A stretch of DNA of 64,000 nt from Clusia tigrina (lineage: Eukaryota > Arthropoda > Insecta > Diptera > Clusiidae), in contig OV050030.1 of assembly GCA_920105625.2 (NCBI GenBank), positions 106,423,698 through 106,487,697 on the forward strand, read 5' to 3'. Both the position numbers and the translations under genes were made by a program. Below, one piece after another: positions 31,687 through 56,441 of the stretch. How positions within the stretch are numbered: position 1 is the first letter of the stretch; each line of letters opens with the position of its first letter. Below the pieces are notes generated by a model that had not been told where the DNA came from, searched no databases, and saw nothing but the letters and a program-made list of their open reading frames with translations.

Positions 31687-31957
31687 CTCCTTTGAACTTT
31701 AGTAGTTATTGAAAGCGCCTAAAATAACCGCAGAAAAAAAATGAGGTAAGTTTTTACCGGGGAGGAGTTGGTATTGCCGCGACCATTTGAATAGAAAAAA
31801 GGATATATCGGTGTGCAATGTGTTTTTTTACTACTGGTAATTTTGTGTTAGCTGCTTACGGGCTTTCGTCGATTCAGCTAATAAAAATACATAGAAATGA
31901 AAATTGTTTCTCAACGAATTTATTGACAAGACAAGTTGCACACAGTAGTTTAATTGC
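31687..31957 (+). repeat. Tandem repeat unit D, truncated
   Basis: Only the first 271 bp of the unit remain. The sequence stops at agtttaattgc, where other units continue with gtatgtaataaattc. At that point it abuts a truncated LTR. The repeat resumes only at 54385, and at an earlier unit position (about base 52), so the block between is not a simple insertion. Confidence 0.85.
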
Positions 31958-33032
31958 AACACTGCAAGCAGGTTTCAATTAATCCGTCGTTAATTACAAC
32001 AACACGACTCGGTAGAATTTACCGAGTGCGTTAGCTCGGGAAATAGAACAACAACAGCACGAGGAACGAATGAAACTGAAAGAGAGAACGACATAACCAT
32101 CGCTGTGCAGACAAGTTTCGCGGACATCACACAAAGGAGAAATGCACAAATAGTTTTCAAACGCTGGTGGATAATTTAAATAATATTAACCACCAGCAGA
32201 AAGAAATCATGCGTACAATAACAACAACAGGGCGTGCAACAACAACAACAGGGCGTGCAACAGCAACAACGTGCCGCTGCAACTACTTCGCGCTTGACAA
32301 CAGCCGGACTTTTCCAGGAAAACGCTGAGGGTTGCCTAATGGTCAAGAGGAAAACACCAACAATGCCTTGGCCTTAGCAACAGGAAGCGGTAGTCGGAGC
32401 AACGGCCAGCGGGACTGGAACAACAACTAGAAGTTCAACAGATGACTATAAAAGCGCCTGCACCCTGACATACGCTCTCTTTTTCCTGCTAAGACATCGC
32501 GCAAGTAAGTACTGTAGAAACTTTGCCGCATAGACGCCACGAGACTAGGAAACATTACCAACGGACACACACACACACAAGCGCTGAATTTACTACGAGT
32601 GCTGGACTTTAATCCACTCTCATAATAAACCAGAGTTTGTTCGTCAGCGTTAGAAACGGTGGACGTGGTTTGTCAATCCACCACCGTTGAAAGACTAAAG
32701 GCAAAGACCGAGACATTAAGAAGAACTGAGTTTGCTACGAACGCTGGGTTTTTCAATCCGCCTTCATAGAAAACCAGGACTTGCTTCTCAGAGTCAAACC
32801 GGTGGAAGTGGTTTTTCAATCCACCACCGTCGAGACTGGAGACAGGACGGCACAGCACCAAGTTCAGGAGCGGCCTTCATAAAGCCCATCATTCCTATGT
32901 AATAACGTGTAAGCCTAGTGATAAGCATAAATATTAAATAAAGAAAACTGAAAATACAACTCCCGAGTAATTTCCTGTAACGACCCCTGGAGCCGCTGAG
33001 TTTTACCCCAGCTATAAATTTGAGTCGTTACA
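31957..33032 (+). repeat. 5' LTR of the Osvaldo/Ulysses-like element, 5'-truncated
   Basis: This matches 48903-52179 without the Transib. It lacks the first 392 bp of the LTR, which are present at 48511-48902. It contains a TATA box (TATAAAAG at 32447), a GTAAGTAC donor-like site about 58 nt after the TATA start, a near-duplicate ggcgtgcaacaacaacaac tract and an imperfect ~140-bp tandem duplication in its distal half (two copies of a caatccaccaccgt-ended module). It ends gagtcgttaca. Confidence 0.9.
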
Positions 33033-33033
33033 G

Positions 33034-33050
33034 TGGCGCCCGAGCAGGGA
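33034..33050 (+). other. Primer-binding site, lysine tRNA type
   Basis: TGGCGCCCGAGCAGGGA begins one base after the LTR end. It differs at one position from the lysine-tRNA primer site familiar from lentiviruses (GAACAGG there). This fixes the orientation of the element and the LTR boundary. Confidence 0.85.
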
Positions 33051-33208
33051 CTATAGAAACAAGGAAATCTAACGCCCAAGCTACGTTTGCCATAACCAAC
33101 GTGGAGACAAGATGGTGAAGACGGGTTGGGTTTTGTTGGGGTCCTTATCTGTTGTCCTCGGGAACGTCCTCTGGAATGTCCTGTCGCGGCTTGTCCTACG
33201 CCGGAACC
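33051..33208 (+). other. Leader of the Osvaldo/Ulysses-like element
   Basis: This is untranslated leader between the primer site and the nested element. It includes a short open stretch from ATG 33112 with a hydrophobic, signal-like composition (VLLGSLSVVLGNVLWNVL). That stretch ends only because it runs into the nested LTR. Its meaning is unclear; it may be chance. Confidence 0.4.
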
Positions 33209-33613
33209 TGTAAACCTACATCACTTTCTTAAATGAGCACTGCACTATTTTGGGTTTAAAACAACAAGGAAGATTTATTCTTAAAATACTAGTTCTTATA
33301 TACTTTTTACAAATAAACATTACAGTCTACGTCTTGACTTTTCTGGTGTTCCAGTTACGCAATTGTTATTTGGTGTCAGTTGCTCACGCCCACTGACCTA
33401 CTGAAGTAAAAGTGTCGTCGGTGCATTCTAAATGCCCCTCGTCAGCTTGACTGCGGAACTGTGACACCCTAAAAGTTTACATCATAATTAATGCATAAAT
33501 ACTATTCATTTACAATATTTGCACCCTAAAAATATGTGCGTTCTTAATGAATTTAATAGGAGCCGGTGCTGTGAGTCAACTACGCGTAGGTAGCTTGATT
33601 CTAACTCACAACA
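33209..33613 (-). repeat. 3' LTR of the 412/mdg1-like element
   Basis: This stretch of 405 bp begins (minus strand) TGTTGTGAGTTAG and ends at the plus-strand TGTAAACC start. A tract GAAAGAGGGGAGGGA (minus strand of 33614-33628) directly precedes it, as expected of a polypurine tract. An AATAAA signal lies near its distal end. Confidence 0.8.
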
Positions 33614-33628
33614 TCCCTCCCCTCTTTC

Positions 33629-36268
33629 TAAAAGAAGTTAGTGCAACTAACTTCCATTAAATCTCTACAATATTTTTCTTGCACTGCAAACAAATATGTG
33701 CATCCATTTAACTCTATATTACATACATATAATTTGTTTTTATTTTTTTTTTTTTAAATCGCCTTATTTGGGTTCTATCACGGTTTTTATTCTTTTCTTT
33801 ACCAGATTTTATTTCTCCAGCTTTTATTTTCTTTTGTAATTTTTTTTTCTTTACTTTGTTTTTGTTTCTTCTTATTTTTATGTATCATTTTTTTTATATT
33901 CCCCTTTTTATAATTTGGTCTTTAATTGACTCTTTTCTCATTGGCGTATATACAAATATCTAAACAATAACAAATACAAATATCTAAACAATATTCTATA
34001 CATAAAACCTTATATTATACTGCGCCCTCTGCTACCTGCTGGTCCAGTTGACGACCGTCGTTGTCTAAGTGAAGTCTCTCGATGAACTCTGCATACCCCT
34101 CCCTTCTTTCTGGACTGGTACGTAAAAAGATGATGCAAGCTTGCGCGACTAGATGCGCTTCTGACGAAGTCAAAATAAATATTCGATATTCGCTTAGTGA
34201 GTGACAATGGATATTTTCTCATTGGAGAAATCGTTACGAAGTTTAGCCGATAAAGCTTGGCTATGTTATGTTCGATCTTTTCGTGGTTAAAACGATTTTT
34301 TGCGCCAGGAGATTATTCTGCGAAGCTAATTGAAAGATGGTAGTTGTGGCTGTTATTGTTATTGTAGCCGTTTCTCGGTAAAATTACGGAGTAACCTCGG
34401 GTTTTGGGTAAAATTACCTCTTCTTCCTTCTAGACAATAATATAATATACATACTGACATATGTAATAATGGCAGACACGTTGGATTTTTTTATCCGGAC
34501 AACGTACATGTTAGTGTTTTTCATGCCATTTCGTCAGTTATGCAATAAAACTCAAGTATTATTAGACTTTTACTTGTCAGATAGAGACTATTGTATTCAG
34601 CCGATACCATTTCCATTTTTTCATAAGCTTAAATCGTAGTCATCTCGTACATGGGAAGTTGGAAGCTCTTCCACTCTTTCATATAAAAATGAATTCTCAC
34701 TAATTTCGTTTTCATTTTCTTCCAACCCAACAATTATCTCTGGACATCATCGTTGCCAAACTCGTCTTTCTTCCTTTGCGGCTTACTGATCACTCTTCTT
34801 CTACGTCTTCTTACTTCTTCTCATTTGGTCAGATTTTTGTCCGCTGCTCCTGCATTTCATCTGCCGGTCTCCTGGATGTTGGTTAACATCTTACTCTGTC
34901 TTCGACGCTGCAGGAAGCCCCTTCCAGGTTCATGCAGCACCATATTGAACCATCCACATGCCCTTGTTTGTTCGCCAACGCCTTAATATCTAAAAACAAT
35001 ACTCTTAATCATGTATCGGACTTGCCGAGATTTAATTATTCTTACTAGCTATTACATTCATTCAATTTTTAATATTTTTCCTAACGTAAACAGTAAATTG
35101 GATTTAAATCTATATATCGCTTATCTACTACGTCTTAACAAACAAACTATAAACAAGTAACAAAAACTTTTTCCTTTACAAATACTATTAACTAACTATG
35201 ATACATTTTCTTACAACTGTTAGCGGCATTAAAACTTTAAATCCTCAAATATATACATTTTACAACAATTTGCTTCATACATAACAATTATTTTCTAATT
35301 ATTTTATATGCCGCCCAAAAAAAAAAATTTTCTTACATAAGCGAGTATATAAAAGATAAATTTATTATTTATTTTTTCTTTTCTTTAGACAATTTATTAT
35401 TCCTTTCATATCATTTCTCTTTTTATATATCTTTTTAAGTTTTTACAATTCCGGACAGATTCTTTTGCCCCCTGACATAAACCAGAATATTTAAGATAAA
35501 CCCGTTTATGTGAAAACATTGTCCATTGCATGACTATATCTTTCATCGCATACAATTACTTTTTATTTAAATTTACTTCTAGCTTGATATGTATATATCC
35601 ATTAACGATACATACACACATTCGAGGCGCTTTAAATTACCTAGAATTAATTACTAACGTAGAATTAACAATTAACTATACATTTTTTCAAATTTTCATA
35701 CGTTAATTTCCTAATCAATAACCAGTAAAAACCTATGTACGAGTATATTTACATATAGCCGACTGCAGTATCTGCAAAAATATACATACGCACATACCCA
35801 TTCCTCTTAACTAGAATACTTACTTCTTTAAATATACATTCGTACATTCATACTTTATCCTATAAACATATATACATACTTACTTCACCAGCAGTTCCGT
35901 TGCCTGACGTTAACGCTCATACGTCGAATTTCAGTGCATACACTGCCGTATGTATGTATGTACATATTCGAAGTTTTATATTACTTACCCACGACTGTCT
36001 TACTATCTTATTTTATTTTTTAATTACGTGCAATATTTATCATTTAATATTTTAAAAAAATATTTTTCCCTACTATGCTTCGTTCGACCATAGTGCATAA
36101 TAAGCACATTTTTATTACGTCGACTTTACTTGCTCGAGTTTAATTGGCACACTTCTGCTGGCCTTGAATTTGAAAATCGGAGCTATGTGTGTTATTTGAT
36201 ACACACACGTACATGTTTACGTTGTTATTCTTGTATTTACACTTGTAAAACACTGCTAACACATGTCT
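33629..36268 (-). other. Noncoding 3' region of the 412/mdg1-like element
   Basis: About 2.6 kb of AT-rich DNA lies between the integrase stop and the polypurine tract. It shows T-rich runs and several TACATA-type motifs but no ORF above about 80 codons and no recognisable env gene. It may be a decayed third gene or a long 3' untranslated region. Confidence 0.5.
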
Positions 36269-37280
36269 TTAGTTGTGTGGTCTAATGTAGAATAATTTCA
36301 ACAAATTATTATGTAGCTTTTTATTTTTTCCCTTAATCGTTACGACTGTTGTAACTGGGCTTCGGATCTCTGCTACTACATACGGACCTATCCACACAGG
36401 TGAGAATTTGTTTCTCCTAGCCTGATTCTTCATTAGTACCTGGTCACCCACATGAAAAACTACGGGGTTTAGTACCTTGTTATAGGCTTCCCTGGCTACT
36501 CGTTTAGCACAATCCTGGTTTTCTCTGACCAATTCGTGCACTCGCTGTAACTGATACTTTTGCACTTTATTCGGGTCGTCAGCATTGTATACAGGCGCAC
36601 ATTTGCGCTTCAAATTCGCTGGCATGTTGAAATCAAACCCGTAGAGTATTCTGAACGGAGTTTGCTTCGTTGATACATGTACCGTATTATTGTGTATATG
36701 CATTGCAGTGGTCAACCATTGATCCCAATTCGAGCCATCTTCTTTGGCAAAACTGCTCAAGTACTCGGCCAGAGGTCGATGACTACGTTCCAATGAGCCA
36801 TTCGCCTGTGGATGATATGGTGTTATGTACAACTTCTTGATTCCCAGCATCTTACAAGTTTCTGAGAATAATTTCGATACAAAATTGGAACCATTGTCGG
36901 TTATCAAAACCTTAGGTATGTTGTATCGTGCTATAATTTCATCAAAGAATGCTTTGGCCACCGTACTTGCTTCAGCATCCGGTATAGCCACGCACGCCAT
37001 ATACTTTGAGAAATCGTCTTGGAACGTCAAGATGTATTTATTGCCCGAAACAGTCTCAGGTAAAATACCTACAATATCCATATGAACTTTATCAAATGGT
37101 TGTTTTGGTGTGTCAGTTAACACCATTGGCATCTTTGTTAGCCTTGAACTTTTGTTGCCCTGGCACTTTGGGCAACTTTTTATATATTTTTTAATGTCCT
37201 TGAGCATACCTTTCCATCTGTATACTCGCCTATTTCTGTCATGGGTTTTCCAGAATCCCTGGTGTCCTCCTAGAGGCGAA
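36269..37280 (-). pseudogene. pol: Integrase of the 412/mdg1-like element
   Basis: The open frame (312 residues from the Met codon ending at 37207) has C12 and C15 of the zinc site. The His pair (HDSPLGGH) lies upstream in the same frame at about 37250. The catalytic residues are D44 (VHMDIVG), D104 (ITDNGS) and E140 (NGSLERS), followed by a chromo-less C-terminal region ending near LFYIRPHN. It is out of frame with the RNase H segment, and the linker between them looks short, so an indel or small deletion separates them. Confidence 0.85.
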
Positions 37281-37862
37281 TCATGGAAACCCCTGGATAT
37301 CCTTTATATCCTCCAGCCATTCCACAGTACTGGCTCCTTGTTCATTAGCAGCGTCACCCGCATCGCTAACATTTCTTGTTGCATCAATTTTATCCCCTTG
37401 AATTCTCTCAGCCTTCTCCTTATCTGACCGTGCTTTGGCCCTCGTTTGCACTACTGATACCTTCTGTGCCTGCGGTACTCTGCTGAGTGCGTCCGCATTC
37501 AGATTCTTCTTCCCAGCTTTGTATATGATTTCAAAATCATAGTCAGACAATTTGTGTCTGAACCTGGCTAGCCTAGACGTTTGGTCTTTCAAATTGGCTA
37601 TGCCTCTCAACGGCTGGTGATCAGTGTATATCTTAAATGGGCGTCCTAGCAGATACGCCCTAAAATTCTTCGTAGCCCATACTATGGCTAGAAATTCCTT
37701 TTCTATTGTGGAGTATCTCTTCTCCGTGTCGCTAAGCGCTCTGCTTGCGAATGCTATTGGTCGGTCATTACCGACTTCCCCTTGTGACAATACTGCCCCT
37801 AATGCTTCATTGCTAGCATCAGTGGTCAACAAAAAAGTTTGCTCAAAGTCGGGGTACGCCAA
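37281..37862 (-). pseudogene. pol: RNase H segment of the 412/mdg1-like element
   Basis: This contains TTDASNEALGAVLSQ at its start, ATKNFRAYL, IYTDHQPL and the terminal NADALSRVP, that is, a complete Ty3-type RNase H. It is entered by a frameshift from the RT frame near 37858 and left by another near 37282. Confidence 0.85.
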
Positions 37863-39655
37863 AGCGGTGGCGAGCTAATTATTTCCTTTAGCCTCTCGAA
37901 TGCTCGCTGACAGCTCTCTGTCCATTCGAACTTTGCTTCTTTTCGTAGCAACTTATTTACTGGCAACGCAATTCCGGCTAGTCCTTCTACGAACTTTCTA
38001 TAATAGTCCACTAGTCCTAGGAATGCTTGCATTTACTTTCTATTTCTTGGAACCGCTAAATTTTTAGCGCATTCCACCTTCTGCGGGTCAGGCAGTGCTC
38101 CTGCTTCTGAGCAACGATGGCCTAAATAAACCACCTCTCTTCGCAAAAATTGACACTTCTCCGTGTTCAATTTCAAATTGTGTTTTCGTAATTTCTGGAG
38201 CACCTTGCACAAGCGTTGCGAATGCTGCTGCAAGTTCTTCCCATAAATTACAATATCATCCAGATACACAAAACAATCTAACCCTTGCAAGCCTGTTAGC
38301 ACATGGTTCATTAGCCGTTGGAAGGTAGCTGGTGCTCCTATTAATCCAAACGGCATTCTATTAAACTCATAATGCCCTAAACCGGTGCTGAACGCGGTTT
38401 TCTGCTTATCTTGGGTATCCACCAGAACTTGGTGGTAGCCACTCGCTAAATCAAGTGTAGAAAAATATCTACTGTGCCCCAGTTGATCCAGAATCTCTTC
38501 TATCCTTGTTATCGGGAACACCTGCTTGATAGTGGCGTCGTTCAATTTCCTAAAATCGATGACCATTCTCCACTTCTTTTGACCCTGAGCACCTCCCTTC
38601 TTTGGTACCAAAATTATTGGTGAATTCCAAGGCGAGATACTCGGTGAAATTATGTTTTCTTTTAACATTCCTTCCACTTGCCTATTTACCTCATCTTTGT
38701 GAGCTTGTGGCAATCTGTACTGTTTCTGGTTAATTGGTGCTTGATCGACTCTAGTAGGAATTTCATGCTCTACCTCTGGTGTATATGTCAACTGGTCTCC
38801 TTCCAGCAAAAATATGTCATGGAATGACGCACAAATGGCTTCTATTGATGCCTTCTCTTCTGAGTTTACGCTTGGGTCTAACTTCAGTGATTCTAGCACT
38901 CTCTCCATTCTTTTTCTTATATCAACTTGTTTAATCTGATTAACCGGTCTATAACTCGGTTCCTTAAATTTGTCGTAACTAGTGAACCTAGGCCTAAAAT
39001 CCTCATCCATCAGGTAGTCCTTTTCCGATGCGTTGAGTACGCAAGCGTACACCTTACTCTTGTCAACGTGCGTTATGGTCTCCCCCATATATACGCCCTC
39101 CGCTAGCTGCTGCTTGTGCAAAACAACAGTCCTAAGTTTCGTATTTACATTCATAGTAACTACTCTGGTTGACCTTGCATTTACTACCTGCATACTATTC
39201 TTAACCTCACTCACGGTTCCATCCTGCCATGACTTTAATGGAAGAGTGAGGATTCTATTCTTATTATTATCATAAAATGATAACTGCTGGTCAAGCGCAT
39301 CCAGTATGGTGCGTCCCCAAAGATTATCGCGGCCAATTATCCCATCAGCCGGGATACCTTTCCTATCCACTTCCACTGCGTGCACTCAAAAACTCATACC
39401 CTTAACTCCACTGTGCCCTATACTGAGCGAGCCCAATGTCCTAATGCACCCTCCAAACGCTCCGTTAAGCGTTCTTACGTCCATTTGATTAATGTCTAGC
39501 CCCTTTCGTAAAACACTAGATTTTACGAGGCTAGTGTCCGCCCCTGAATCCACCAAAAGCACTAGCTTTCCACTAGCTGATTCCTTGCAGGGTATCTCGA
39601 TGAAGACATCACCTATCCTGCTCAGAACGAAGCAATGTCCTTTTGTTCCCAACAT
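37826..39655 (-). pseudogene. pol: Protease and reverse transcriptase of the 412/mdg1-like element
   Basis: One reading frame is interrupted by two stops, TGA at 39386-39388 and TAA at 38033-38035. The protease has DSGAD near the start and a later GIIGRDNLW motif. The RT (numbering from 39385) has PIILVPKKGG at about 256-265, DFRKLND, LDLASGYHQV, MPFGLIGAPATFQ and YLDD at 374-377. After the second stop the frame continues with the conserved AFLGLVDYYRKFV connection segment. Each break is a single base change in otherwise coherent coding sequence. Confidence 0.88.
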
Positions 39656-39792
39656 GGACGTGTATCCATTTCCTAACTCTTCGAGATATTGGAGAGCCTC
39701 TTGCTCCTCCTTCTCCTGGTCTGCAGTTTATACATTACTACTCACACGTACTTCCGGCCTTATTATTACTTCCTTTCTTTTGGCTTTCCAGT

Positions 39793-42083
39793 CTATTGGC
39801 CTCGACTGGGCCGCCGGAAGTTTCCCTGGTTCCTTTGTTGGGATTGTCTATCCCTGCATTCCGCTGCCCGATGTCCCATCTGTCCACATGAGAAGCATCT
39901 TAACCCCTGTTTGGTGTTACTTATCCTTTGTTCACTTCTGGAATTCCAATTTGGTTGCTGCTGACCACTCCCAGTTTTGAAAGGATTTCTTCCTTGGTTA
40001 ATTCTTTCCGTTGAGTTGACTCGAGGACTACTACCCCTGCTGTCCCTTAAGGGTGGATCCGGGCGCCTCGTAACTGGCTGCCTTCTACTTTGATCCCATT
40101 TATTGTCTAATTGGCACTGTCTACTTGCCTCATGACCATATATTTTGCACTCCATACAATAGGGCGTATTCTTGCGTGTAATGCATTCATCCCTTGTATG
40201 GCCTGGCTTATGGCAGAATGAACAAATGGGTATCCTCGGCTGGAATTTCTCGACTAGGAATCCTTGGTTTCTTTGTTGCGGGACTTGATCCACCATTCTG
40301 CCGACTCCCCTTGGGTTCTGCTGCTGTATCGGTCCTACCTCTGCAGGAGCATTCGTCCAGCAGATTCCAGCTGTTGTCGTTCGCTGTTGTATTGCTGCTT
40401 CAGCTAAAGAGACCGCTTCCACTAGTTCTGTCATGCTCCTCGGCGTGAGAGTAAGAGTATAATTAGCTAAGTCCCTATTTATCAGGCCTGCCTTGAACAC
40501 AGAAATCATAGTCCGTTCTACTTGAGCCTTGTAAGCTGCAACATTTTCTGGAAACTGCCAGTTGGCTTCCGTCTCAGCAGCGTTCCCCAGAGACTGGAGC
40601 CTTCGTCCCCAGGCTCTCAATTCCTCCCCCGGTGTCTGAGTTGATTCCTGAATTTCCCGAACGAGACAGTCGTATGACTTTTGTTTCAAATATGTCCGAT
40701 CCAAAAGTGCGTATAACTCCGGCAGGGTGCTTACTGAGCTAAGCACCAGTAAATCAAACGCATCACCTGTGGTTCTTTGCCTAATACACTTTATTAAATG
40801 TTCCCCGTCCGCTTCCGGAACACACTGTTGTGCTAGCTCAAAACCTTCTTTGAAGCGCCGGATCTCAGTTCTCAGATCATACAACTCGACTCCTGAGAAC
40901 ATGGGCACCAACTACTCCACCGCATGAGCAACTTCCAGAATGCCCATTTTATTCCTTTGTGTTTTCTCAATTGCTGGTAAAACCTTAGCTTTATTAATCT
41001 CTTTGAGAGTTTCCAAATTCTCTTCTCCTGGATCTGAGAGGTAATTGGCCAGTGACGGACTCAAACTAATTGGTCTTCGATCGTTTGTTCGTGAAGGCGA
41101 AATACTGCCCACAGTATCGGAACTTTGCTGCACGGGTACTGCTTCCGGCTCCTTTGGCGGATATCCCTGATTTTTATTATTTATCGGGCCTCCCGGAGAA
41201 AAAGGCTCGACACCGATTTCAGATGCGCCAAACAAAAATTCCGCTTGCCTTTCTTCATTAAGTACTAATTTTGGCTTTACCATGCGGCTTATCCCTTCTG
41301 GTGTTAAATACTCCGGCCAGCGAACTTCAGGAGGCAATGTCAATACTGTCTGTGTAAATCCAGCCGATGCTGATTTCGATCTCTCCTTTCTATGTGAGTT
41401 GCTATTGGTCGCCCGTCCTCTTTTCAATCCTGCACACTCCTTCTCCAACAGCGCTGCTGCTTCCTCTGTTTCCGACAATCTCTGAGAAAGTTCCTTTACC
41501 TTATTCTCAAGATACTCTTTTTGTGCTCTCCAATCTTCTGCTTTCCTATGAAAACTGAACAACTTTTCTTCTGTTCTTTTTTGGATTGCCGTTAAGGCTT
41601 GATCCGCTACTTCTAATGGTGACACTGAGTTCTTCTAATGGTGAATTCCTGAGCTTCTTCCCTGCTCGTACTGGCTTCGAACTGGTCAACTATTTTCCCA
41701 GTAAACAGTTCCACCTCTGACTGCATTGATTTCAATCTGTTCCTTACTTCCTCGTCTGGCGAAAACAAACTTACTGTTTGTTGCCCTAGTCCTTCTAATT
41801 CAGAACTAAATGTATCTGCCCATTCGTTGACCAGACTATTTATGTAGTCTGCGTAATTTTCCGCAAAATATTTTCCCTTGCCGTACTCAACTGCGTGAGG
41901 CAACAACAGTCCGTGATTATTGTTGAACTCTCTCCCTAGATTTTGCAACTGAGTTATTCGCTTGCGGTAATACACGTTGTCCTTACGTAAACTGCCGTCT
42001 TTCTTAAAATTACGGACCAATTTTTCAATCGCTTCGCCAATTTGGTCCTGCATCAGCAGTAATCCTTGCGCTTCCTTCGTCAT
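39793..42083 (-). pseudogene. gag: Gag of the 412/mdg1-like element, broken
   Basis: The likely start is the ATG at 42081-42083 (MTKEAQG). An N-terminal helical region runs to 41620, where a short duplication (caccattagaag occurs twice within about 25 bp) shifts the frame. The frame then continues with a Glu/Lys-rich coiled coil (about 41500-41620) and a proline-rich linker. It meets a TAG at 40912-40914 and resumes through a capsid-like region. Three zinc knuckles follow (CSFCHKPGHTRDEC, then a CMEC...GH variant with one extra spacer residue, then CFSCGQMGHRAAEC). Protease lies in another frame, consistent with a gag-pol frameshift. Confidence 0.85.
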
Positions 42084-42839
42084 ATCCCTAATGCCAGAAC
42101 AGATGGCGTATCCCAATTACAAATAAAAATCCAATATTTGTTAAAACTTGTTACAATATTTTATTCGATCTTACTTAATGATTCAAAACAGAGTTATTAA
42201 AAAAAAACATTCCACCGTAAATTCTATCTTTATATACATATTCTGCTATACTTGTTTTCCATCACAAAGTTCCGCTGTCTACCGGCGTCCATTAAGTCCT
42301 TCCATCAATGCAAATTGGTCCTTGACTTCCTCACAAATACTCCTTGATTTCCTCTCACCATCTTCAATCCTCCCAAGAATCCATAGAAAAGGCCATATGT
42401 TTGTAAAAACCGAAATTTGATTTACCGGCAAAAGTGTCTTGATTCATTCTCGGAAATTTGAATCCATATTTAAAAATAAACCCGTAACGTATGCGCCACG
42501 TAATAATAGCATTTAAATATAAAAATCCTCACAGCTAGGATGAACATACATAGACCGTCCGATCATACTGACGGTTTATGGTTGCCATTCAAAGCTGCGT
42601 GCAACAGCGCAAACGCGCCTGTATGTTGCAACTTCTTTGACCAGCGCTACGGCGCCTTCAGGGTCGCAGAAGTATCTACTTAGTTTACGCTAATATACAC
42701 TCTACTCACCAAAATTTTTTCCGATGACATCTTTTTTCCACAGTGTCCTTAGATGAGGTCCTTCGAATTCGTTGCAGGATGCCTCTCTGCTTCAGGGTTC
42801 CTTGCCCTGGGATTACTCCAATAGGTCCTTTAGACCGGC
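42084..42839 (-). other. Leader or anomalous 5' end of the 412/mdg1-like element
   Basis: This 756-bp stretch lies between the gag start and the 27-bp LTR-like end. In element orientation it should hold primer site and 5' LTR, but it does not match the 3' LTR. A TGGCGC start occurs on the minus strand near 42492, a weak primer-site candidate. Nearer the right end the minus strand has ATGTCATCGG followed shortly by GTGAGT, which is start-codon-like and donor-like. Its origin is unresolved. Confidence 0.4.
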
Positions 42840-42866
42840 TAGGTAGCTTGATTCTAACTCACAACA

Positions 42867-44036
42867 GTTTATTCGCTGAGGAAAGATCAATTGGTGGCCT
42901 ACTGCACTGAGTTCAAGCAAGATACAACAGGAACAGTTGAAGAGCTCCGTAAGCGATTGGCGGAGTGGGTTGGCGGCACCGAATTGAGCCAGGATCAGCA
43001 GCTTCGAGTGGCTGAATTGCAGGCCTATCACTTGAGAAGCTTGTCCCCAGGTACAAGCTTGACTTGCAGGACACCCCATGGCATCGAGCGGACAGAGGTT
43101 GCTAGTGAGTCGATAGACATAAGAAGGGATACGCTATCACCATGTAGGGGTGAACAACCCGGACCACTGCAGGACACCGTACAAAGTGTGGCGCCGGACT
43201 TTCCTCGGAGTGGAAACAGTCCATATTCAGTGGTCATTGATCACGTAAGAAAGTGGTCGATTAAGTTCGATGGTGGCCGTGACCCGCTGGCATTTCTTGA
43301 ACTGGTGGAGGAGCTTTCGGAGGTGTATGGGCTCAACAGGAACATGCTGCCGCGTACCATGCCGGAACTCCTAAAGGATCGTGCGCTTCTATGGTATCGC
43401 AATAACAATCGTTTCTGGACAGCATGGAGCATGTTCCGAAAGGATTTCCTAAAATTCTTCTTGCCTGCCAGATACCTGGAGACGTTAGAGGATGAGGTAC
43501 GGCAAAGGCGTCAAAAACCACGGGAGACGTTTAAGGAATACGTTGTGGAAATACAAAATCTCATGTGGCATGCTGGGTACTCCGAAGCACAGAAACTGGA
43601 ACGGATCTTTCGGAATAGTTTGGAAGCGTACCAGTGGTAAGTACGCCGCAAAGATTTTGGGACTCTGGAGGAGCTGGTGGAGATGGCTGAGGATCTCGAA
43701 GGCCTACGTGGTGATCGTGACACTCACCGAGTAACCCCTGTGCAATCGCGGGTCGAGCGTACACCACCACGTGAGACACGCCATCGACAAGTGGCACCAG
43801 TTACTCATGCGGGAACAGAGGGACACATAGATGTACGCACAGCTTGCAGGCGCTGCGGTCAAGCGGGGCATTTTGCGCGACACTGCCGAAATGCACAATT
43901 GCTGTTTTGCTGGGAGTGCGGAAGGAGAAATATAAGAACAGTGGAGTGCTGCAGGGCATCAGGGGGAAACGGGCAGGGCTGCCGCCAGGAGCGAGGCACG
44001 GCGCAGTCCTCCGGCAATACGCCTCATCATCAATAA
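42867..44036 (+). pseudogene. gag: Gag of the Osvaldo/Ulysses-like element, SAP-like N-terminus
   Basis: The true start was lost to the nested insertion; the frame is open from 42867. The first 35 codons (LRKDQLVAYCTEFKQDTTGT, then VEELRKRLAEWV) look like a SAP motif. A capsid-like domain follows (LLWYRNNNRFWTAW, then KEYVVEIQNLMW). A TAA at 43638-43640 interrupts the frame, after which it continues in phase with KDFGTLEELVEMAEDL. Zinc knuckle 1 is intact (CRRCGQAGHFARHC). The second (CWECGRRNIRTVEC) has Ile where His is expected. Protease is in the -1 frame, overlapping the end of gag, consistent with a -1 frameshift. Confidence 0.85.
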
Positions 44037-44398
44037 GCGCGTTGCGTTGCGATGGGCAACGTATATGTGCAACGGTCGTCCTAGAGGCACACGAAATAAC
44101 AGCAACGATCGACACGGGAGCTACACGAAGCTTCGTTAGCGAGCGGCTCGCTCGTCAACTACGTACTACCACCGGTAGGGTTGTCCCTACACTCATTAGA
44201 GCACGTATGGCTGACGGACGAACTCGAGACATAACGGAGGCGCTAGTGATCAATGTAAGGCTTGGAGAACGGATATGCCAAATGGAACTACTTACGATGC
44301 CTGACTCCACCGACGACTTGCTTCTGGGTTTAGATTTTCTGACGAAACAGGGAACCACTATAAGTTGTGGGGATCAAGTAGTGAATTTGAGACCATAG
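43844..44398 (+). pseudogene. pol: Protease of the Osvaldo/Ulysses-like element
   Basis: The open frame overlaps the gag zinc-knuckle region in the -1 phase. The retropepsin motifs are TIDTGATRSFVS near 44108 and DLLLGLDFL near 44325. The frame ends with TAG at 44396-44398, but pol goes on in the same phase, so this is a nonsense codon inside a former protease-RT fusion. Confidence 0.85.
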
Positions 44399-46198
44399 GC
44401 CAATGGCGTGCAATCACAGGGTATCACATCGTGTACGACCATTCGAGCTGAGGCTATCTCCGAGGAGGCTATGATCGACACATTTCTCGCTGCCGAGCTA
44501 AGTAAGTTTGACGAGACTCCAGGCGTGTCCAACTTAACTAGTCATAAAATCGTGATGAAGGACGAGAGGCCAGTGAAGCAAAGGTACAACAGGAACCCGG
44601 CACAACAAGCGCTCATCAGCAAAGAGATAGACGAACTATTAGCGAAAGGCTGCATAGAACCTTCCCACAGTCCCCATAGCGCCCCAATCGTATTAGTTCG
44701 GAAGAAGGACGGGAGGTGGCGACTGTGTGTGGATTATCGCCAATTAAATGCGAGATCCATCCCCGATGCGTACCCATTACCCCGTATTCAGCACATTTTG
44801 GAGCGCTTACGCGAAGCCAAGTTTATTAGTAGTCTGGACCTTAAAAACGGTTATTGGCAGATCCCGATGGAGGAGAAGAGTAAGGAGTATACAGCGTTTA
44901 CCGTACCCGGCAGAGGCCTCTTTCAGTGGCGAGTCATGCCATTTGGCTTACACTCCGCACCAGCAACGTTCCAGCGAGCACTAGATCAGGTAATTTGCCA
45001 CGACATGGAACCACACGCGTTTGCTTACTTAGACGACATCATCGTCACTGGAAGAACACTGCAGGAGCATCAACAAAATCTGGGGAAGGTGTTCCATCGA
45101 CTGCGCAAGGCTAGTCTAAGACTCAATCTTGAGAAGTGTGCGTTTTTCCGGAAGGAGTTAAAGTACTTGGGCCACGTGGTGAGTGAAAAGGGAATCCATA
45201 CGGATCCGGATAACGTCGCGGCCATACGGGAACTAAAACCACCACAGAACGTAAGAGAGCTCCGACGTTGCTTGGGAATAGCCTCGTGGTACCGGCGTTT
45301 TGTCCCCGATTTTGCGAAAATCGTACAGCCGCTGACTGCACTCCTGAAGAAAGGGAAGCATTTTAAGTGGGACGACGCTACACAGCAGGCTTTCGAAACG
45401 TTGAGGCGGCAGCTAACCGAGGCGCCTATCTTGGCATGTCCAGACTTTTCGCAGAAATTTACTCTTCAGACAGATGCTAGTGATTACGGGTTGGGAGCGG
45501 TGCTCACCCAAGATATAGAAGGAACAGAGCGGGTGATATCCTATGCCAGCAGGCATCTGAATGCAGCAGAGCGAAACTACTCTCCTACGGAGAAAGAGTG
45601 CCTAGCCATCGTCTGGGGTATACGTAAGATGCGGCCATACCTAGAAGGCTATCAATTTACGGTCATAACGGATCACTTGTCCCTGAAGTGGCTTAACTCA
45701 ATCGAAAGCCCTTCAGGACGTATAGCTCGATGGGCGTTGGAACTGCAACAGCACTCGTTCGAGGTGCAGTATCGTAGAGGAAAGCTAAATGTAGTAGCCG
45801 ACGCGTTATCAAGGCAGCCAGTCGAGGCTGCGTGCACCATCACAGTGGAGGAGAATCCGGATGAGGACTGTAACTGGTGGCAAAAGCGGAGGGCAGAGGT
45901 GATGGCCGAGCCGGCCAAGTTTGCAGACTACTCTCTCGAGAACGGACAGCTTTACCGGCACATCCCAAATCGATCAGGCGACGAGGACTGTGCTCCTTGG
46001 AAACTGTGTGTGCCGACTGCGCTTAGGGAACGCATCTTGAGAGAGAATCACGACGCACCAACAGCGGGGCATCTAGGCATCCGGAAGACCATAGCGCGCA
46101 TCGCAAATCGCTACTATTGGCCGGGACTCTTCCGGGATACCAGTCGCTATGTACGAAGGTGCAAGCTTTGCCAGCAGTATAAATGCAGCCAACAATAA
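44399..46198 (+). pseudogene. pol: RT-RNase H of the Osvaldo/Ulysses-like element
   Basis: Numbering from 44408 (596 residues): the RT has PIVLVRKKDG near 93-102, CVDYRQLN near 107-114, LDLKNGYWQIP near 143-153, MPFGLHSAPATFQ, and the catalytic YLDD at 207-210. RNase H begins with LQTDASDYGLGAVL and ends with VVADALSRQP. The integrase zinc site is complete at the end (HDAPTAGH, then CKLCQQ). The reading frame is uninterrupted between the TAG at 44396 and a TAA at 46196-46198 that cuts between the zinc domain and the integrase core. Confidence 0.92.
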
Positions 46199-47128
46199 CC
46201 GGCCGGAGAAATGCTCACACAGATTCCGGAGGAGCCGTGGGCTGTTCTGTGTGTCGACTTCGTGGGACCTCTTCCACGATCAGCGCATGGAAACACTATG
46301 CTGGTAGTGTTCCATGATAAGTACACTAAGTGGACTGAAATGGCGCCACTCCGGAAAGCCACTACCGAGACTTTACAACGGGCTTTCCAGCAGCGCATAC
46401 TAGCTCGCTTTGGCGTGCCAAAGGTTCTAGTCTCCGATAATGGGTCCCAGTTTACTAGCAGGGCGTTCCGACGATTCACTGACGACTACGGGATGCGACA
46501 CCAGTTTACCGCACCATATACGCCACGGGAGAACGCAGTTGAACGCACCAATCGCACCGTAAAAACTATGATTGCTCAGTTCGCCAACAAGGAACAGCGA
46601 CGATGGGATGAACTGCTCCCGGAACTGACGCTGGCCATGAATACAAGTGTCTCGGAGACGACCGGATATAGCCCGGCATATTTAGTTCAAGGACGTGAAC
46701 CACGACTCCCAAAAGCGCTGTATGACGAAACGACATTGGGTACTGGTGCGTTACCACAAACACCTAATGAACGTTCAGAACAGCTCAAGGAGGCATACCA
46801 GCTAGTGAAACGAAACCTAGAGAGGGCAGCACAAGACCAGCGAAGGGACCATAACCTAAGACGCAGAGCGTGGAAGCCAAGCATAGGACAGCTCGTATTG
46901 GTAAAACAACACCACCTATCAAAAGCGATAGACCATTTCGCCGCCAAACTAGCGCCCCGCTACGATGGGCCGTTTCGTGTAAAAGATTTCATTTCGCCGG
47001 TTATAGTCAAGATGACACTGGAAGGTCACCAAACTGAGAGGACCGCCCACATCGGCGAATTAAAACTTTTCTGCGCGCCGGATGATCGGCCCGAACCTAT
47101 AGCGTTGTCGGGATGGAATCGAGAGTAG
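46199..47128 (+). pseudogene. pol: Integrase core of the Osvaldo/Ulysses-like element
   Basis: This is in the same phase as the RT segment. Counting from the Met codon at 46211 (305 residues), the catalytic residues are D16 (CVDFVGP), D76 (VSDNGSQF) and E111 (ENAVERTN). The C-terminal half has the usual basic SH3-like region (APRYDGPFRVKDF). No chromodomain is seen. Only the upstream TAA breaks it; the triad and fold motifs are intact. Confidence 0.92.
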
Positions 47129-47208
47129 GTGTAGGGGTCACGGACGCAACGGTATAAAGGAGAATGAACAAGGAAAAGGACTACTGTTACAAAAGTTTAC
47201 AAAAAGTG

Positions 47209-47269
47209 TATAAAAGCGAGAGTATGCACGCTAAAACCTTCTTTTCGTCACCAAACTAAACGTAAGTAC
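47209..47269 (+). promoter_or_regulatory. Internal TATA box and donor-like site ahead of the Ulp1-like gene
   Basis: TATAAAAGCG (47209-47218) is followed 53 nt after its first base by GTAAGTAC (47262-47269). The LTR promoter has the same layout (TATAAAAGCG, then GTAAGTAC after 58 nt, with a pyrimidine-rich ct-t stretch between). This suggests a second promoter or a relic LTR promoter for the third gene. It is inferred from motif layout only. Confidence 0.5.
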
Positions 47270-47406
47270 ACCAGGAAGTTTTCGGAAAAAAAATCCAAGA
47301 AAAAAAAGATCAAAAATATAGTCATGGCACCGCAATACGTCACCGTTAGTCGAATCATCGTGGAGAATCCACTGGAGCTAGGAGATGGAGGCAAGGAAAA
47401 CAAATA

Positions 47407-48378
47407 GTGCCCCTCCTACTGAGTAGCGAGAGCGAGAGTGAAGTGGAGGAGAATGGAGATCGCCCGCTCGTGGTGTATCCACCGGGTAAAGGGGAAGCCG
47501 TCAGGAACTGCGATATCGAGTGTCTTCAAGAGGGATGTCTCCTGAACGATGTCATCCTGGACCTTTATCTTAAATGGATCCAGTTAAATCGCGTACCACA
47601 CAAGCAGCGGACACCCGTTTATGTGTTCTCCACTCATTTCTATTCACAATTAACGCAACGGCCGGGCACTCCGGTGGACCAGCACACACGAGTCAAACGA
47701 TGGACGAAAGGGCAAGATGTGTTTCAGTACGACTTTATCATTGTCCCCATCAACCAACGCCTGCACTGGTACGTGGCCATCATCTGTTTCCCAGCAGCTT
47801 TTGCGGCATGCTGAAAGGGAACCACCATTTTATTTTTCGATTCTCTAAACAAGAAGTCACACAACGAAGAAGCAGGGGTACTGCGCCAATATCTCTACGA
47901 GGAGCGCAAGACACGGCTGCCAACAGCCCCGACCACGCCCTATGACGCACGTGACATACCGGCACACACACTGAGCTCGCCTAAGCAAACTAACCAGACA
48001 GACTGTGGCGTGTTCGTGCTGCAGAACGTGGAGAGCTTCTTTACGGAGCCAATCCGTGGGGAAACATGGGAGTCTACAGATCTAAGGAACTGGTATGCGG
48101 CCGAGAAGATTCCCAAGAAACGCAAGGAGATTGAACACCTACTACGACAGCTAACAACCAGGAAGCCCACCCACACAGAAGTTCCGCGTGTAGCTACACC
48201 ACGTGAATCCCAGCGCTGCGATTCCACTAGCTCCGACGACACGCACAGTGGCACCTGGAAACGCCAGAGGAAGGACCAGGCTACGCAACTACCAGCCGAA
48301 GAGTCCGGCTGGAAGGATTTTGTCTGCCAAGATGCCAGTGAATTGACTGCGGAAGCAACAATGGACCAGTGGAACTAG
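47407..48378 (+). pseudogene. Ulp1/SENP-family (C48) SUMO-protease-like protein in retroelement third-gene position
   Basis: Located between integrase and the polypurine tract, on the element strand, where env would lie. Counting from 47407 (324 codons with one TGA at 47812-47814): residues 36-60 (CDIECLQEGCLLNDVILDLY) match the substrate-binding start of Ulp1 domains. The His is in LHWYVAI (His 120), the Asp in LFFDSL (Asp 145), and Gln 194 with Cys 200 form the Q-X5-C signature (QTNQTDCGVFVL). Thus all four catalytic positions remain. The basic, Ser/Thr-rich C-tail is unassigned. No in-frame ATG exists; ATG 47324 opens a 27-codon frame that ends at TAG 47405, so an indel there or splicing is likely. 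C48 enzymes process SUMO or related modifiers in the nucleus; the role in this element is unknown. A host gene is unlikely given the position. Confidence 0.88.
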
Positions 48379-48495: not shown

Positions 48496-48510
48496 GAAGT
48501 GGGGAGGGCA
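48496..48510 (+). other. Polypurine tract
   Basis: gaagtggggagggca directly precedes the TG of the 3' LTR. It is the expected primer for plus-strand synthesis and fixes the LTR start at 48511. Confidence 0.8.
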
Positions 48511-49778
48511 TGTGACGAGCAAAATTATTTATTAATTTTACTCGCACAATAATGGACCGCCAGCATCACTCGCGTGCGAAGAAGTTTGAGTGCTGTAACC
48601 AATCAGCTTGCGCGGCGCCATCAACACTTAATGTTAATTGTTAGAATACCTTCGCACCAATGGAAACCACGGCGAAAGCGGGAGATCATGAAATGCACAA
48701 AATAATAAACGTTGATCAATAAATCAAAAGCAAATGGCACCAACAACTACGCAAGCAGAATGGTAACAGCAGCATTGGCAAAGCCAAGCCCGCCGCTTGC
48801 GTAAGACAAGGAAAAGGAATTGCATGTAAATTATACCAACACGAATGCGCCGACAGACTTGGCGAACTCAAGCCAGCCGTTTGCATTGATCGACAACAAC
48901 AACAACACTGCAAGCAGGTTTCAATTAATCCGTCGTTAATTACAACAACACGACTCGGTAGAATTTACCGAGTGCGTTAGCTCGGGAAATAGAACAACTA
49001 CAGCACGAGGAACGAATGAAACGGAAAGAGAGAACGACATAACAATCGCTGTGCAGACAAGTTTCGCGGACATCACACAAAGGAGAAACGCACAAATAGT
49101 TTTCAAACGCTGGTGGATAATTTAAATAATATTAACCACCAGCAGAAAGAAGTCATGCGTACAATAACAACAACAGGGCGTGCAACAACAACAACAGGGC
49201 GTGCAACAGCAACAACGTGCCGCTGCAACTACTACGCGCTTGACAACAGCCGGACTTTTCCAGGAAAACGCTGAGGGTCGCCTAATGGTCAAGAGGAAAA
49301 CACCAACAATGCCTTGGCCTTAGCAACAGGAAGCGGTAGACGGAGCAACGGCCAGCGGGACTGGAACAACAACTAGAAGTTCAACAGGTGGCTATAAAAG
49401 CGCCTGCACCCTGACATACGCTCTCTTTTTCCTGCTAAGACATCGCGCAAGTAAGTACTGTAGAAACTTTGCCGCATAGACGCCACGAGACTAGGAAACA
49501 TTACCAACGAACACACACACACACAAGCGCTGCATTTACTACGAGTGCTGGACTTTAATCCACTCTCATAATAAACCAGAGTTTGTTCGTCAGCGTTAGA
49601 AACGGTGGAAGTGGTTTGTCAATCCACCACCGTTGAAAGACTAAAGGCACAGACCGAGACATTAAGAAGAACTGATTTTGCTACGAACGCTAAGTTTTTC
49701 AATCCGCCTTCATAGAAAACCAGGACTTGCTTCTCAGAGTCAAACCAGTGGAAGTGGTTTTTCAATCCACCACCGTCG

Positions 49779-51974
49779 CACAGTGGTCGATTTGAAGTAT
49801 TTAGGCGGCCAAAAGTCAAAATCTTAAATACGTAGTAGGCACAAAATATTGACGTCTACGTATAGTAAACACTTCCGCGAATTACCCCCCACCCTTTTTT
49901 TCAACAACCATATGTCACCGCTTCCGTGCAGTTAGACGCAATTTGATCGTTGACTTGATACGTATTTCTATTTGGGTGCCCAAATTATATCAAATTTCGC
50001 AATACGCATGTATGTATATTTTAAGTTGTGTAGTGAAGTGAAAGTGAAAGTGATTCCCATAGCTCAAGTAAGCTTCTATTATATAAATAATAGTTTTAAC
50101 TTTTATTTTTAACTTTCGTTATATTTTTCGGTAGTTGAACATACCCTCTTTTTCACATAAAAAATGTAATTTTTTTAATTTCAAAAGGAATTTTGTTATG
50201 GATCAGGATTCGTCCGGATCATATTTTTTTGTTTATTGAATACGTTACACATTCAGCTTTTCTATAAAAAAAAACAAGAGCCCCAGAGTCCCGTTTATTC
50301 CTTAAACACAGCAGTTCAAAGTATTTTGTTAAAAAATTTAAAAAACCATTTTTTTTAATTTTATGTTTTTTTTTTTTAGTTATGGGGGTGAAAATAGTGA
50401 CCCGTAAATGTATGTTTAAGCAAATGCAACTACAAAATTTGCGAAGTATGGATGAGAAATTGGACTTTTTAGAAAACCACTTGCTATTGTCTTGCGGAGA
50501 CACTGTGGAAAGAAAAAAGAGCCTTAAGCATAAATTTTCCTACATCAAACACGAATTTAAACAGAGATGGCTAAAAGCTCATAAAGTTGAAGAAGTTTTT
50601 ATGAAAAACAACCAGAAGCGGCTGGAAGGCACTTTTGAAATACCAGTGCATTCGCTTAATCAACCAGGTCGTCCGAGCAAATCATTTTCGGATTCGAGTG
50701 AACGAAGCAAGAGAAGAAAAACTGAGGAAATTCGATCAAATGTTGATGATGAAATGATTATACATGCCGCACAAGTCATATTGCAAACGAAGGGAAAAAG
50801 AAATTACTCAAAAGTGCTCAAAAATATACGAAATTCACCAACAAAGGCTAGTAAATATAGAAAAGCCTATTCCAAGACCAATGAAACAATTGCTCCTTTG
50901 ACCCCGTTCCAAGCACTCAAAATGTTCGTAGAAGCTGATCTAACAAGACGACAATATGAAATAATAATGGCAACTAACCCAAAGCATTACCCTTGTTACG
51001 ACATTTTGTTGAAAGCAAAACAAGAATGCTACCCACCAAAGACGGCATTGCGAGTAACGGCTACCTGCGCAGAAATTAATTTACAATGCCTAATGGATCA
51101 TACTATTCAACGATTATCAGTCTACCTGGAAGAAGTGTTATCAACCCTTAACGAAATTGAAAGAAAGTCATTAACGATCATTTATAAATGGGGGTGTGAC
51201 GGGTCACAACAAGCACGGTACAAACAAAAATTCTCGGAAGACGCCGAATCCGATGCTAGTATATTTTTGAGTTCTTTTGTCCCACTTTAAATTATTTGTG
51301 GTAAAGAAAACAATAAAGTGTTGTGGCAAAACCCAACACCATCATCACCACGATTTTGCCGCCCCATCAGATTTCGGTATGTGAAAGAAACTACAGATGT
51401 AACAAAAGAGGAAATAAGTTATGTGCAAAATGAAATTAAGAACCTCACTCCTACAAAAGTAAATATTGTGGGAAAAGAATTTGCTTATAATCACATTTTA
51501 AAGATGACCATGATTGATGGCAAAGTTTGCAATGCTGTAACCAACACGACCTCAACTAGCCGATGCTATATATGTGGAGCCACTTCCAAAGATTTCAATA
51601 ATTTAAGCAAAAAGAACGAGATAAGTCCCGATGCTCTTGAGTTTGGCATTTCGGTATTGCACGCAAAAATACGTATTTTTGAAGGCATTCTGCATTTGGC
51701 ATATAAATTGCCCGTGAAGAAATATGGAAAGAAAAGGACCGAGGAAGAGAAAGCATTAGAAGAAGAAAGGAAAAAAGAAATCCAAGAAAGATTCCGCTTA
51801 GAAACTGGGCTGTTGGTGGACATGCCTAAAGCCAATTTTGGTAATACCAATGATGGCAATACGAGTAGGAGATTTTTTGAAAACACAGAATTAGCGGCGG
51901 ACATAACAGGCATTAACCACGAATTAATACACAAATATTTTTGGCCGCCTAAATATTTCAAATCGACCACTGTG
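49779..51974 (+). mobile_element. Transib DNA transposon with RSS-like ends
   Basis: This is a 2196-bp element in the second tandem module of the LTR. The terminal inverted repeats of about 36 bp start CACAGTGGTCGATTTGAAG and differ at one or two positions. The target duplication is CGTCG (49774-49778 and 51975-51979), fitting the Transib preference CGNCG with 5-bp duplications; the intact site is at 32826-32834. The first seven bases equal the V(D)J heptamer CACAGTG, and after 23 bp comes CCAAAAGTC, a 6-of-9 match to the nonamer. It encodes a RAG1-related transposase that lacks its C-terminus. Confidence 0.93.
50382..51965 (+). pseudogene. Transib transposase (RAG1-core relative), one stop and C-terminal deletion
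   Basis: The frame from ATG 50382 runs 302 codons to TAA 51288-51290 and continues in the same phase to the right inverted repeat. An early basic region precedes GRPSKSF (a small AT-hook-like motif). The catalytic Asp is in KWGCDGSQQ (Asp 273), and YKQKF and LSSFVPL follow. After the stop come LWQNPTPSS, MIDGKVCNAV, a zinc-type CYICGAT, the YKLPVKK segment and the TSRRFFEN segment, which should hold the third acidic residue. The protein then runs straight into the terminal repeat, so roughly 150 residues of the usual near-700 are missing. VPL is followed by Gln in relatives as I recall, so CAA to TAA is likely. A pyrimidine tract and AG lie just before the ATG, and an ATGGATCAG upstream at 50198 may be an earlier exon. 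Confidence 0.9.
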
Positions 51975-53164
51975 CGTCGAGACTGGAGACAGGACGGCAC
52001 AGCACCAAGTTCAGGAGCGGCCTTCATAAAGCCCATCATTTCTGTATAATAACGTGTAAGCCTAGTGATAAGCATAAATATTAAATAAAGAAAACTGAAA
52101 ATACAACTCCCGAGTAATTTCCTGTAACGACCCCTGGAGCCGCTGAGTTTTACCCCAGCTATAAATTTGAGTCGTTACAATACCTAAATGATCCATGATT
52201 CCAATTTTGGGAATGCACAAAAGTTGTACCTAGAAATGTATTGACAGATAATGCACCTAAAATAATTCGCATATAACTTGTTACACGCATTTAACTTATA
52301 TTATACAATGCCAACGTTCACTCGACGGGCTGCGTGTACTACCAAAATAGAAATATATACATACCAGAGTAACTTTAAAGTGTGAAGTTGTGTTTTTTTA
52401 ACTGCTCACTTGCAAGTGTATTAATTTATTTCCACAGTAGAAATTGAAATTCAAAACGAAGTATAAATACGCCTGCCGTTTGTTGCACTACTACCGAGTG
52501 CTGAATCTGCTCATTTTAATATAAATATTATATCAATTCAATTATATTTAAAAATTGAAAAGTGTACAAAAATAAGCGGTTTGCAATGATCAACGGATGA
52601 GCGTGCTGCTCTCTACCACTCAGCCCACGAGCTCTCAGCGCATGCGCTCTCATAGTGTGTCGGAAGTGTCATGAAAGGCTGAATTGCCTCTACCTTTGCT
52701 TCAAGTTATTTCATGGCAGTGCTACATAAGTATGGCTCTTCAAGTTTGATTCATTCTCTCCCTAAAGTGACGACGTGCAACGACAGGAGACGATTGGCTG
52801 CACAATAAACAGTTCAGATCTACTTGGTGTTTTGGATTCCCCCTCAATATGGTTGACACCGCACAATCGCCGCGAAGCCCACTAAACACTCGTGGAGTGT
52901 ACAATGCCGTACTCCACATCCAAAAACACCTGACACTACTCAAACTGCCAACACCCAATCACTTAACGTAAACACCAACACAAACAACCACAGACTGCAG
53001 TCTCTCCGCCTGTCACGATAATAGGGTATTTCAAAGTGAATCCAAAGCTCTTCCTCTCAGACATGCAAACTTGTGTGCATAATTTGTCGCATGCCAGTTC
53101 GCTAGACACTTTTGCGACACGTTCAAACACCATTTCGCTTTGATTGTTGAAGTGAACGGACATC

Positions 53165-55743: not shown

Positions 55744-56369
55744 GTACATTGTTTAGTTATTCTTTTTATTATACATTTTTACTTTAAGTTTTATTATTCT
55801 ATACAACACTGTCATTGAAGACAAGAAAAAAAGAGAATGTCAAGAAAATGGAAAATACTACAGTTTGCCAACGACAGAGGTAAAACACAGAATATCTATA
55901 ACCACGTTCGAATCTAATGGTGTTTTTTGTCGAGTCGCCCCCACCGAAGTCAACTCGCCGCGACGACTCTCAATTCTAACTCTACACAATGTCTACTAAC
56001 GAATCTTCACAAGAAATTGTAAACTTTATAGAATATATCCTAAAAAGTTAGTGTTGATCAGGCTTAATTAGCCTGTCCACTAAAAAAGTAATGTACTATG
56101 ATACCACTGAATTGTAATAAAATAGAAAGAGAGACCTAACGGAACAAATGAGGGATAATAATGAGACAGAGTTGATTAGAGTAGGTGGAATGAGACAGTA
56201 CATGGACAGAATTTGATCAGTCAGTTCACCACCTGCAGTTAGCCTAGTTGTCTAGATGGACAGATTACAACCGCTGAAGGCCCAGTATCCATTTCAGGGC
56301 GGGTTCCTAGTTGATTTGCTGTTGATTTCTGAGACATAATAAAAAATGCTTGTGGAAAAAATTACCTTT

Positions 56370-56441
56370 TATTGAAAAATCTCTGATGAGGACAAGTGGC
56401 GTGTCCGAAATAGGTATAAGATCTGCCAAAATGTTTCAATA
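56370..56441 (+). ncRNA. Hammerhead ribozyme, type I, unit E copy
   Basis: The core CTGATGA is at 56383-56389; the sequence is identical to the unit B copy and lies in the duplicated tract. Confidence 0.8.

Follow-up and report, generated by a model that had tools for sequence, protein, structure and literature searches.

Ulp1-type proteases have been described in several kinds of mobile elements. The nematode non-LTR retrotransposons NeSL and Utopia carry a Ulp1-like protease within a retrotransposon, as does the locus reported here, but in these elements it forms the N-terminal domain of an element protein and no LTRs are involved (PMC4640811). Plant Vandal MULEs encode a Ulp1 domain in an extra gene (KIU/VANC) and escape silencing; they are DNA transposons, and a review calls the role of their Ulp1 part unknown (PMC13317346). 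In some families of Ginger1 DNA transposons a Ulp1 domain accompanies a gypsy-type integrase, but these elements have inverted ends and carry Ulp1 or OTU fused to the transposase (PMC2836005). CryptonF and CryptonS of oomycetes possess a C48 peptidase besides their recombinase, and differ in being tyrosine-recombinase elements (PMC3212892). The original prediction for our locus had named DNA transposons as carriers of SUMO-protease domains. This is correct, but the list has to include the non-LTR retrotransposons NeSL and Utopia (PMC4640811).

For LTR retrotransposons, no C48, Ulp1 or SUMO protease gene appeared among the matches listed from the open-access literature. The Osvaldo/Ulysses group of flies and mosquitoes shares with our element its LTR size class, a tRNA-Lys-type primer site and a near reverse transcriptase (RT). 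Unlike the element reported here, this group has no C48 gene described in the mosquito Osvaldo paper, the main text of which makes no mention of Ulp1 (PMC3286476). Third genes in a survey of Metaviridae were env in 17 of 17 lineages, all from the gypsy/gypsy clade, which fits the original expectation of env or nothing in this slot (PMC12992720).

Among cellular enzymes, SENP6, SENP7 and yeast Ulp2 edit SUMO chains (PMC4281951). These proteins, with which we group fly Velo as cellular chain editors, have catalytic motifs in common with our gene, whose top PDB score is to SENP7. SENP7 differs by an insert between its His and Asp motifs, whereas the gene reported here is without this insert and lies in a mobile element. 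We therefore regard the SUMO protease gene in this LTR element as a cargo that mobile elements have acquired repeatedly, here in a new kind of carrier.

Anatomy and lineage of the element

One Ty3/gypsy LTR retrotransposon copy lies on the + strand of the window, a 64-kb stretch of DNA, and was later interrupted by two nested insertions (Table 1). Comparison of the window with itself found 31957-32832 repeated at 48903-49778 and 32814-33032 repeated at 51956-52179. Aligned base by base, the LTR pair was equal at 858 of 876 and 200 of 203 positions (98.05% together). The start of the 3' LTR was set by its TG..CA ends and the polypurine tract (PPT), as its first 392 bp are without a 5' partner.

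Table 1. Features of the element and its C48 gene, with positions in the window
Feature	Position	Strand	Details
5' LTR remnant	31957..33032	+	first 392 bp of LTR absent; ends ..CGTTACA
Words in 5' LTR	32447; 32505; 32937		TATAAAAGCG; GTAAGTA; AATAAA
Primer binding site, presumed tRNA-Lys type	33034..33051	+	adjoins LTR end
Likely gag start	33112..33133	+	ATG 33112; cut by nested element
Nested second LTR element	33134..42866	-	boundaries set by GTTT duplication
Remainder of gag with zinc knuckle	42867..44036	+	PF03732, E 3.3e-8
In-frame stop TAA in gag	43638	+	
Pro-pol frame, stop to stop	43775..47128	+	overlaps gag; PF13975, PF00078, PF17917, PF17921, PF00665
In-frame stops in pro-pol	44396; 46196	+	TAG; TAA
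Integrase stop	47126-47128	+	
Promoter-like module	47209..47268	+	TATAAAAGCG 47209; splice-donor word GTAAGTA 47262
Likely N-terminus of C48 protein	47324..47407	+	ATG 47324; different frame, closing 47405-47407
C48 frame, first part	47350..47811	+	Ulp1-type start region; catalytic His (HWYVAI)
In-frame TGA of C48 frame	47812..47814	+	
C48 frame, second part	47815..48378	+	Asp (FFDSL); Gln/Cys (QTNQTDCG, Q-X5-C); basic C-terminal tail
Polypurine tract	48497..48508	+	AAGTGGGGAGGG
3' LTR, first part	48511..49778	+	starts TGTGACG
DNA transposon nested in 3' LTR, presumed Transib type	49779..51974	+	target duplication CGTCG; inverted ends
3' LTR, last part	51975..52179	+	ends CGTTACA; carries CGTCG duplication

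The insertion within gag is a second LTR element, flanked by a GTTT target duplication (33130-33133 and 42867-42870). Reading phase in gag is equal on either side of it, which chance would produce in one of three cases. All that was found left of one of its LTRs was a 27-bp match. The insertion within the 3' LTR is a DNA transposon, the empty site of which is visible in the 5' LTR. Its first open frame matches PDB 6pqn, annotated as 'DNA-mediated transposase' (E 1.3e-18), and we take it to be of Transib (RAG1-related) type. The CACAGTG at its ends resembles the V(D)J heptamer.

Profile searches of gag also returned the zinc knuckle PF13696 (E 3.4e-4, under the family cut-off of Pfam). The N-terminus of gag (42858-43640) gave a weak SAP-like Pfam match, likewise under cut-off (E 0.056). 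Many SAP domains are associated with SUMO ligases, and such a domain, if real, would be a curious partner for a SUMO protease in one element.

Pfam searches with separate pieces of pro-pol gave the order aspartic protease, RT, RNase H and integrase. This is the order of Ty3/gypsy elements, and the best solved relative of the RT is that of Ty3. The primer site is presumed to be of tRNA-Lys type, and the LTR of 1468 bp (nested transposon excluded) falls within about 1 to 2 kb. Given these long LTRs (1.47 kb) and the tRNA-Lys-type primer site, the element most likely belongs to the Osvaldo lineage of Ty3/gypsy. Members of that lineage reportedly prime from tRNA-Lys and have LTRs about 1 to 2 kb long (PMC3286476).

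Relatives of the RT were common, with 4374 matches from 7955 candidates scored. Among the 120 matches listed, the best identity was 71%. Named proteins in this set were 52 to 68% identical overall, and those from Drosophila (madeirensis, subpalustris, palustris, yakuba, pandora, and montana) 57 to 68%; other named matches came from Rhagoletis pomonella, Tenebrio molitor, and Solenopsis invicta. Taken together, these named relatives suggest a fly as the host of the element. PF02902, the Peptidase C48 family, was detected in none of the 120, nor did any of them match the two halves of our C48 frame better than E 0.24, although a separate gene would not be visible in RT proteins.

No env, the third gene that marks an Errantivirus, was found between integrase and PPT. 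Four open frames of at least 80 residues occupy this interval. Two are the C48 halves, which matched PF02902 only (Pfam), and the other two had no Pfam match above cut-off. Pattern searches of viral contigs returned 8 + 8 stretches for the C48 halves, 1 for RT, and 1 for integrase, with 0 confirmed. In a collection of prokaryote genomes, 40 stretches matched the integrase pattern and again 0 were confirmed.

The Peptidase C48 gene and its place in the element

Searched apart, the two open halves of the gene matched PF02902 at 51.8 bits (E 1.2e-13) and 24.0 bits (E 3.9e-5). Both scores exceed the family cut-off of 20.7 bits, bearing out the C48 likeness which the original prediction had read from short motifs. 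Because the halves match separately, the similarity is not due to chance. NCBIfam profiles gave no match to either half. The HWYVAI, FFDSL, and QTNQTDCG motifs, the Ulp1-type start, and the interrupting TGA were all present on the + strand where they had been placed. In an alignment of 4 sequences, H139, D164, Q213, and C219 (numbering of P0121) sit in invariant columns; in C48 peptidases, these His, Asp, Gln, and Cys residues have catalytic roles. The gene thus encodes a Peptidase C48 (Ulp/SENP), the fold of which is settled by these sequence matches, with SUMO cleavage as its predicted activity.

Read from 47404, the C48 frame contains 1 stop in 324 codons, while the remaining five frames of this stretch contain 8 to 15. 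The range first proposed for the gene, 47209 to 48378, is right at its end and wrong at its beginning, as 47209 is a TATA-like word and the likely start is ATG 47324. The frame of this ATG closes before the catalytic motifs, at 47405-47407, so a frameshift probably separates the start from the catalytic frame.

Counted to ATG 47324, the gene begins 195 bases after the integrase stop. Its frame ends 118 bases before the PPT, and the whole lies inside LTRs which are 98% alike. These positions support the C48 gene as the third gene of this copy, between integrase and 3' LTR, in agreement with its original description as third gene of a gypsy-type element. Since one copy was seen, the gene might instead be a host retrogene which inserted into that copy after integration. 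We consider this very improbable, as the gene fills the space from integrase stop to PPT. It is flanked by no direct repeat of at least 7 bases and followed by no run of at least 6 A (no poly-A tail), so nothing here points to insertion at a later time. In base composition, too, it is near integrase (C48/integrase: A.281/.285, C.273/.264, G.256/.259, T.190/.192). In codon usage, a frame-shifted control matched pol as well as the C48 frame did (0.49 against 0.46).

The copy is dead. It bears four in-frame stops, one likely frameshift, and two nested transposons; the original prediction had called it defective from the TGA and an unclear N-terminus. Programmed readthrough of the TGA was considered and rejected, because gag and pol hold three further in-frame stops of other kinds. 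Divergence of the LTRs predicts 0.4 to 0.8 stops for the 324 C48 codons (1 found), 1.25 to 2.5 for 1068 pol codons (2 found), and 0.5 to 1.0 for 393 gag codons (2 found, the second taken as the gag end). As stops occur about as often as LTR divergence predicts, nothing suggests that the C48 gene was inactivated earlier than the other genes of the element.

Relatives of the protease and a promoter-like module

Human SENP7 was the best solved relative of each C48 half (E 6.7e-25 and 5.4e-10). With the stop written as X, the full frame scored 131 bits against SENP7, followed by Ulp2 (79), SENP2 (65), SENP1 (59), SENP5 (41), SENP3 (29), and yeast Ulp1 (27). By score, the gene is nearest to the Ulp2/SENP6-7 branch. 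We do not class it as a full member. Inserts within the catalytic domain mark this branch (PMC4281951), but 56 SENP7 residues between the His and Asp blocks face 2 positions in our frame, one of which is the stop. The encoded enzyme is shortened by this measure.

A YPP-KG stretch aligned to SENP7 was kept, which we take to be loop 1. Two further stretches are candidate signals: IVPLLLSSESESEVEE, upstream of the C48 domain, resembles a SUMO-interaction motif, and KRQRK, a basic patch of the C-terminal tail, resembles a nuclear signal.

Adenoviruses and Polintons may use Ulp1-like proteases in polyprotein processing, and the C48 protease might likewise cut the polyprotein of its element. Cysteine proteases of this type are common to both groups (PMC10175614). 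We find this hardly credible here, given that the element already encodes an aspartic protease and that the best PDB chains are those of SENP7.

Searching the protein database with the full C48 frame gave 3 matches from 674 candidates, none a close homologue. These came from Macrosiphum euphorbiae (the best, 36% identity over 30% of the query), Phakopsora pachyrhizi, and Echinops telfairi (SENP5). The first half alone drew 7 candidates, with 0 at E 0.001 or better. This search takes proteins of 0.55 to 1.75 times the query length which have exact 5-residue words in common with it; because of these length and word rules, missing homologues are weak evidence. Set beside the common RT relatives, they do count against the gene being shared throughout the lineage. 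The element kept 32 of the 38 columns identical in these three database C48 proteins, and among the 104 columns where all three differ, 18 equalled P0122 and 37 equalled any of the three.

Scarce homologues together with common RT relatives, and the single copy seen, are what would be expected of a passenger, that is, a host gene acquired by transduction or template switching and carried unused by the element or one subfamily. In plants, genes taken up by transposable elements mostly decay, although captured genes under negative selection in LTR elements are reported too (PMC13317346). We regard a passenger as somewhat unlikely. Its stops are not above the prediction from LTR divergence, its composition is near that of integrase, and conserved columns were retained. 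A host gene under constraint and acquired only recently could also account for the low stop count and the retained columns.

A promoter-like module precedes the C48 gene. The word TATAAAAGCG occurs at 3 sites on the + strand of the window, namely in both LTRs (32447 and 49393) and at 47209. GTAAGTA follows it 58 nt on in both LTRs and 53 nt on in front of the C48 gene. There were no further TATAAAAG..GTAAGTA pairs 40 to 75 bases apart on either strand of the window. The module was spotted first and tested later: none of 200 shuffled windows contained the word pair, and none of 5000 shuffles of 47129-47323 contained both words; in both tests a shuffle could be as much as 50 bases shorter than the original. 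When the 47.2 kb region was simply aligned to the LTR promoter, the score was 57, against 56 for the best of 2000 shuffles. Within the window this score was not exceptional: of 1278 pieces aligned likewise, one unrelated piece scored 57 and six more scored 51 to 55. As one unrelated piece reached the same score, we prefer the exact two-word module over plain alignment. These matches suggest that the C48 gene may have its own LTR-like promoter.

A possible role against SUMO-dependent silencing

We give an even chance to the proposal that the gene is a captured, shortened deSUMOylase, which serves as third gene of an Osvaldo-type element and lifts SUMO-dependent silencing of that element. On this view, a SUMO protease from the Ulp2/SENP6-7 branch would have passed from a host cell into the element and become shortened, without SENP7's long His-Asp insert. 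The protease would probably be produced as a separate protein outside Gag-Pol. Its RNA could be a short one, from the LTR-like TATA/donor module just upstream, or could be spliced from the LTR donor. The enzyme may act in the nucleus and remove SUMO, chains by preference, from host silencing factors. SUMO removal would then raise transcription of the element. We would also expect the C48 gene in further copies of the element.

An anti-silencing role, as the original prediction had suggested, is plausible, and three precedents bear on it. SENP7 has been connected with HP1 and with the stripping of SUMO chains from KAP1 (PMC4281951). In fly ovarian cells, removing its four SUMO sites deprives Panx of silencing activity, which a stable SUMO fusion restores (PMC13195609). 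In yeast, Ty1 RNA rises when SUMO conjugation is lost or Ulp1 is no longer tethered, and is up too in a ulp1 mutant with impaired activity, a rise which the authors attribute to decreased SUMOylation (PMC8585004). Because impaired ulp1 raises Ty1 RNA and Ulp1 also matures SUMO, the Ty1 precedent, as reported there, favours low SUMOylation and not simply more protease. By analogy with the three cases, an element-borne enzyme of the SENP6/7 branch would be expected to loosen silencing.

The same enzyme could instead work on proteins of the element and leave host silencing aside. It might take SUMO off Gag or integrase, stabilise either of them, or release the integration complex. SUMO proteases recur in unrelated elements of different life cycles (PMC2836005, PMC4640811, PMC3212892), as would fit a role in some general step, for instance transposition. 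Ulp1 proteases have been suggested to take part in transposition in work cited in PMC2836005. We nevertheless judge this reading to be unlikely, as nothing examined in the window favours SUMOylation of Gag or integrase, and the SENP6/7 branch is mainly chain-editing, while SENP7 targets include chromatin proteins (PMC4281951).

Returning to an anti-silencing enzyme, its extension to a whole family is more doubtful, though still a possibility we entertain. In an Osvaldo-type family, probably of flies, the third gene would regularly encode a shortened SENP7-type protease and be read from an LTR-like promoter of its own. This protease would remove SUMO chains from the piRNA/heterochromatin machinery. 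The gene would thus have an anti-silencing function in the slot that env holds in relatives. Transposon silencing in flies involves SUMO (PMC13195609), which in yeast keeps LTR elements in check (PMC8585004). If the proposal is true, an LTR element with its own SUMO eraser would represent direct counter-defence by a retrotransposon, and would provide a tool for asking which SUMO conjugates keep silencing in place. Such a case would also demonstrate that gypsy elements can place an anti-silencing gene, and not env alone, in the third position.

Elsewhere in the window, two 8.26 kb stretches (13030-21285 and 55745-64000) are 99.6% identical and equally oriented. This pair is either a recent segmental duplication or a higher-order repeat. 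An open frame of 1215 residues, stop to stop, lies at 21749-25396, and its motifs lead us to take it for an R1-like non-LTR retrotransposon. Both 8.26 kb stretches share an open frame (20740 and 63455), which in the first copy lies just before the R1-like LINE frame; the second copy is cut by the window end.
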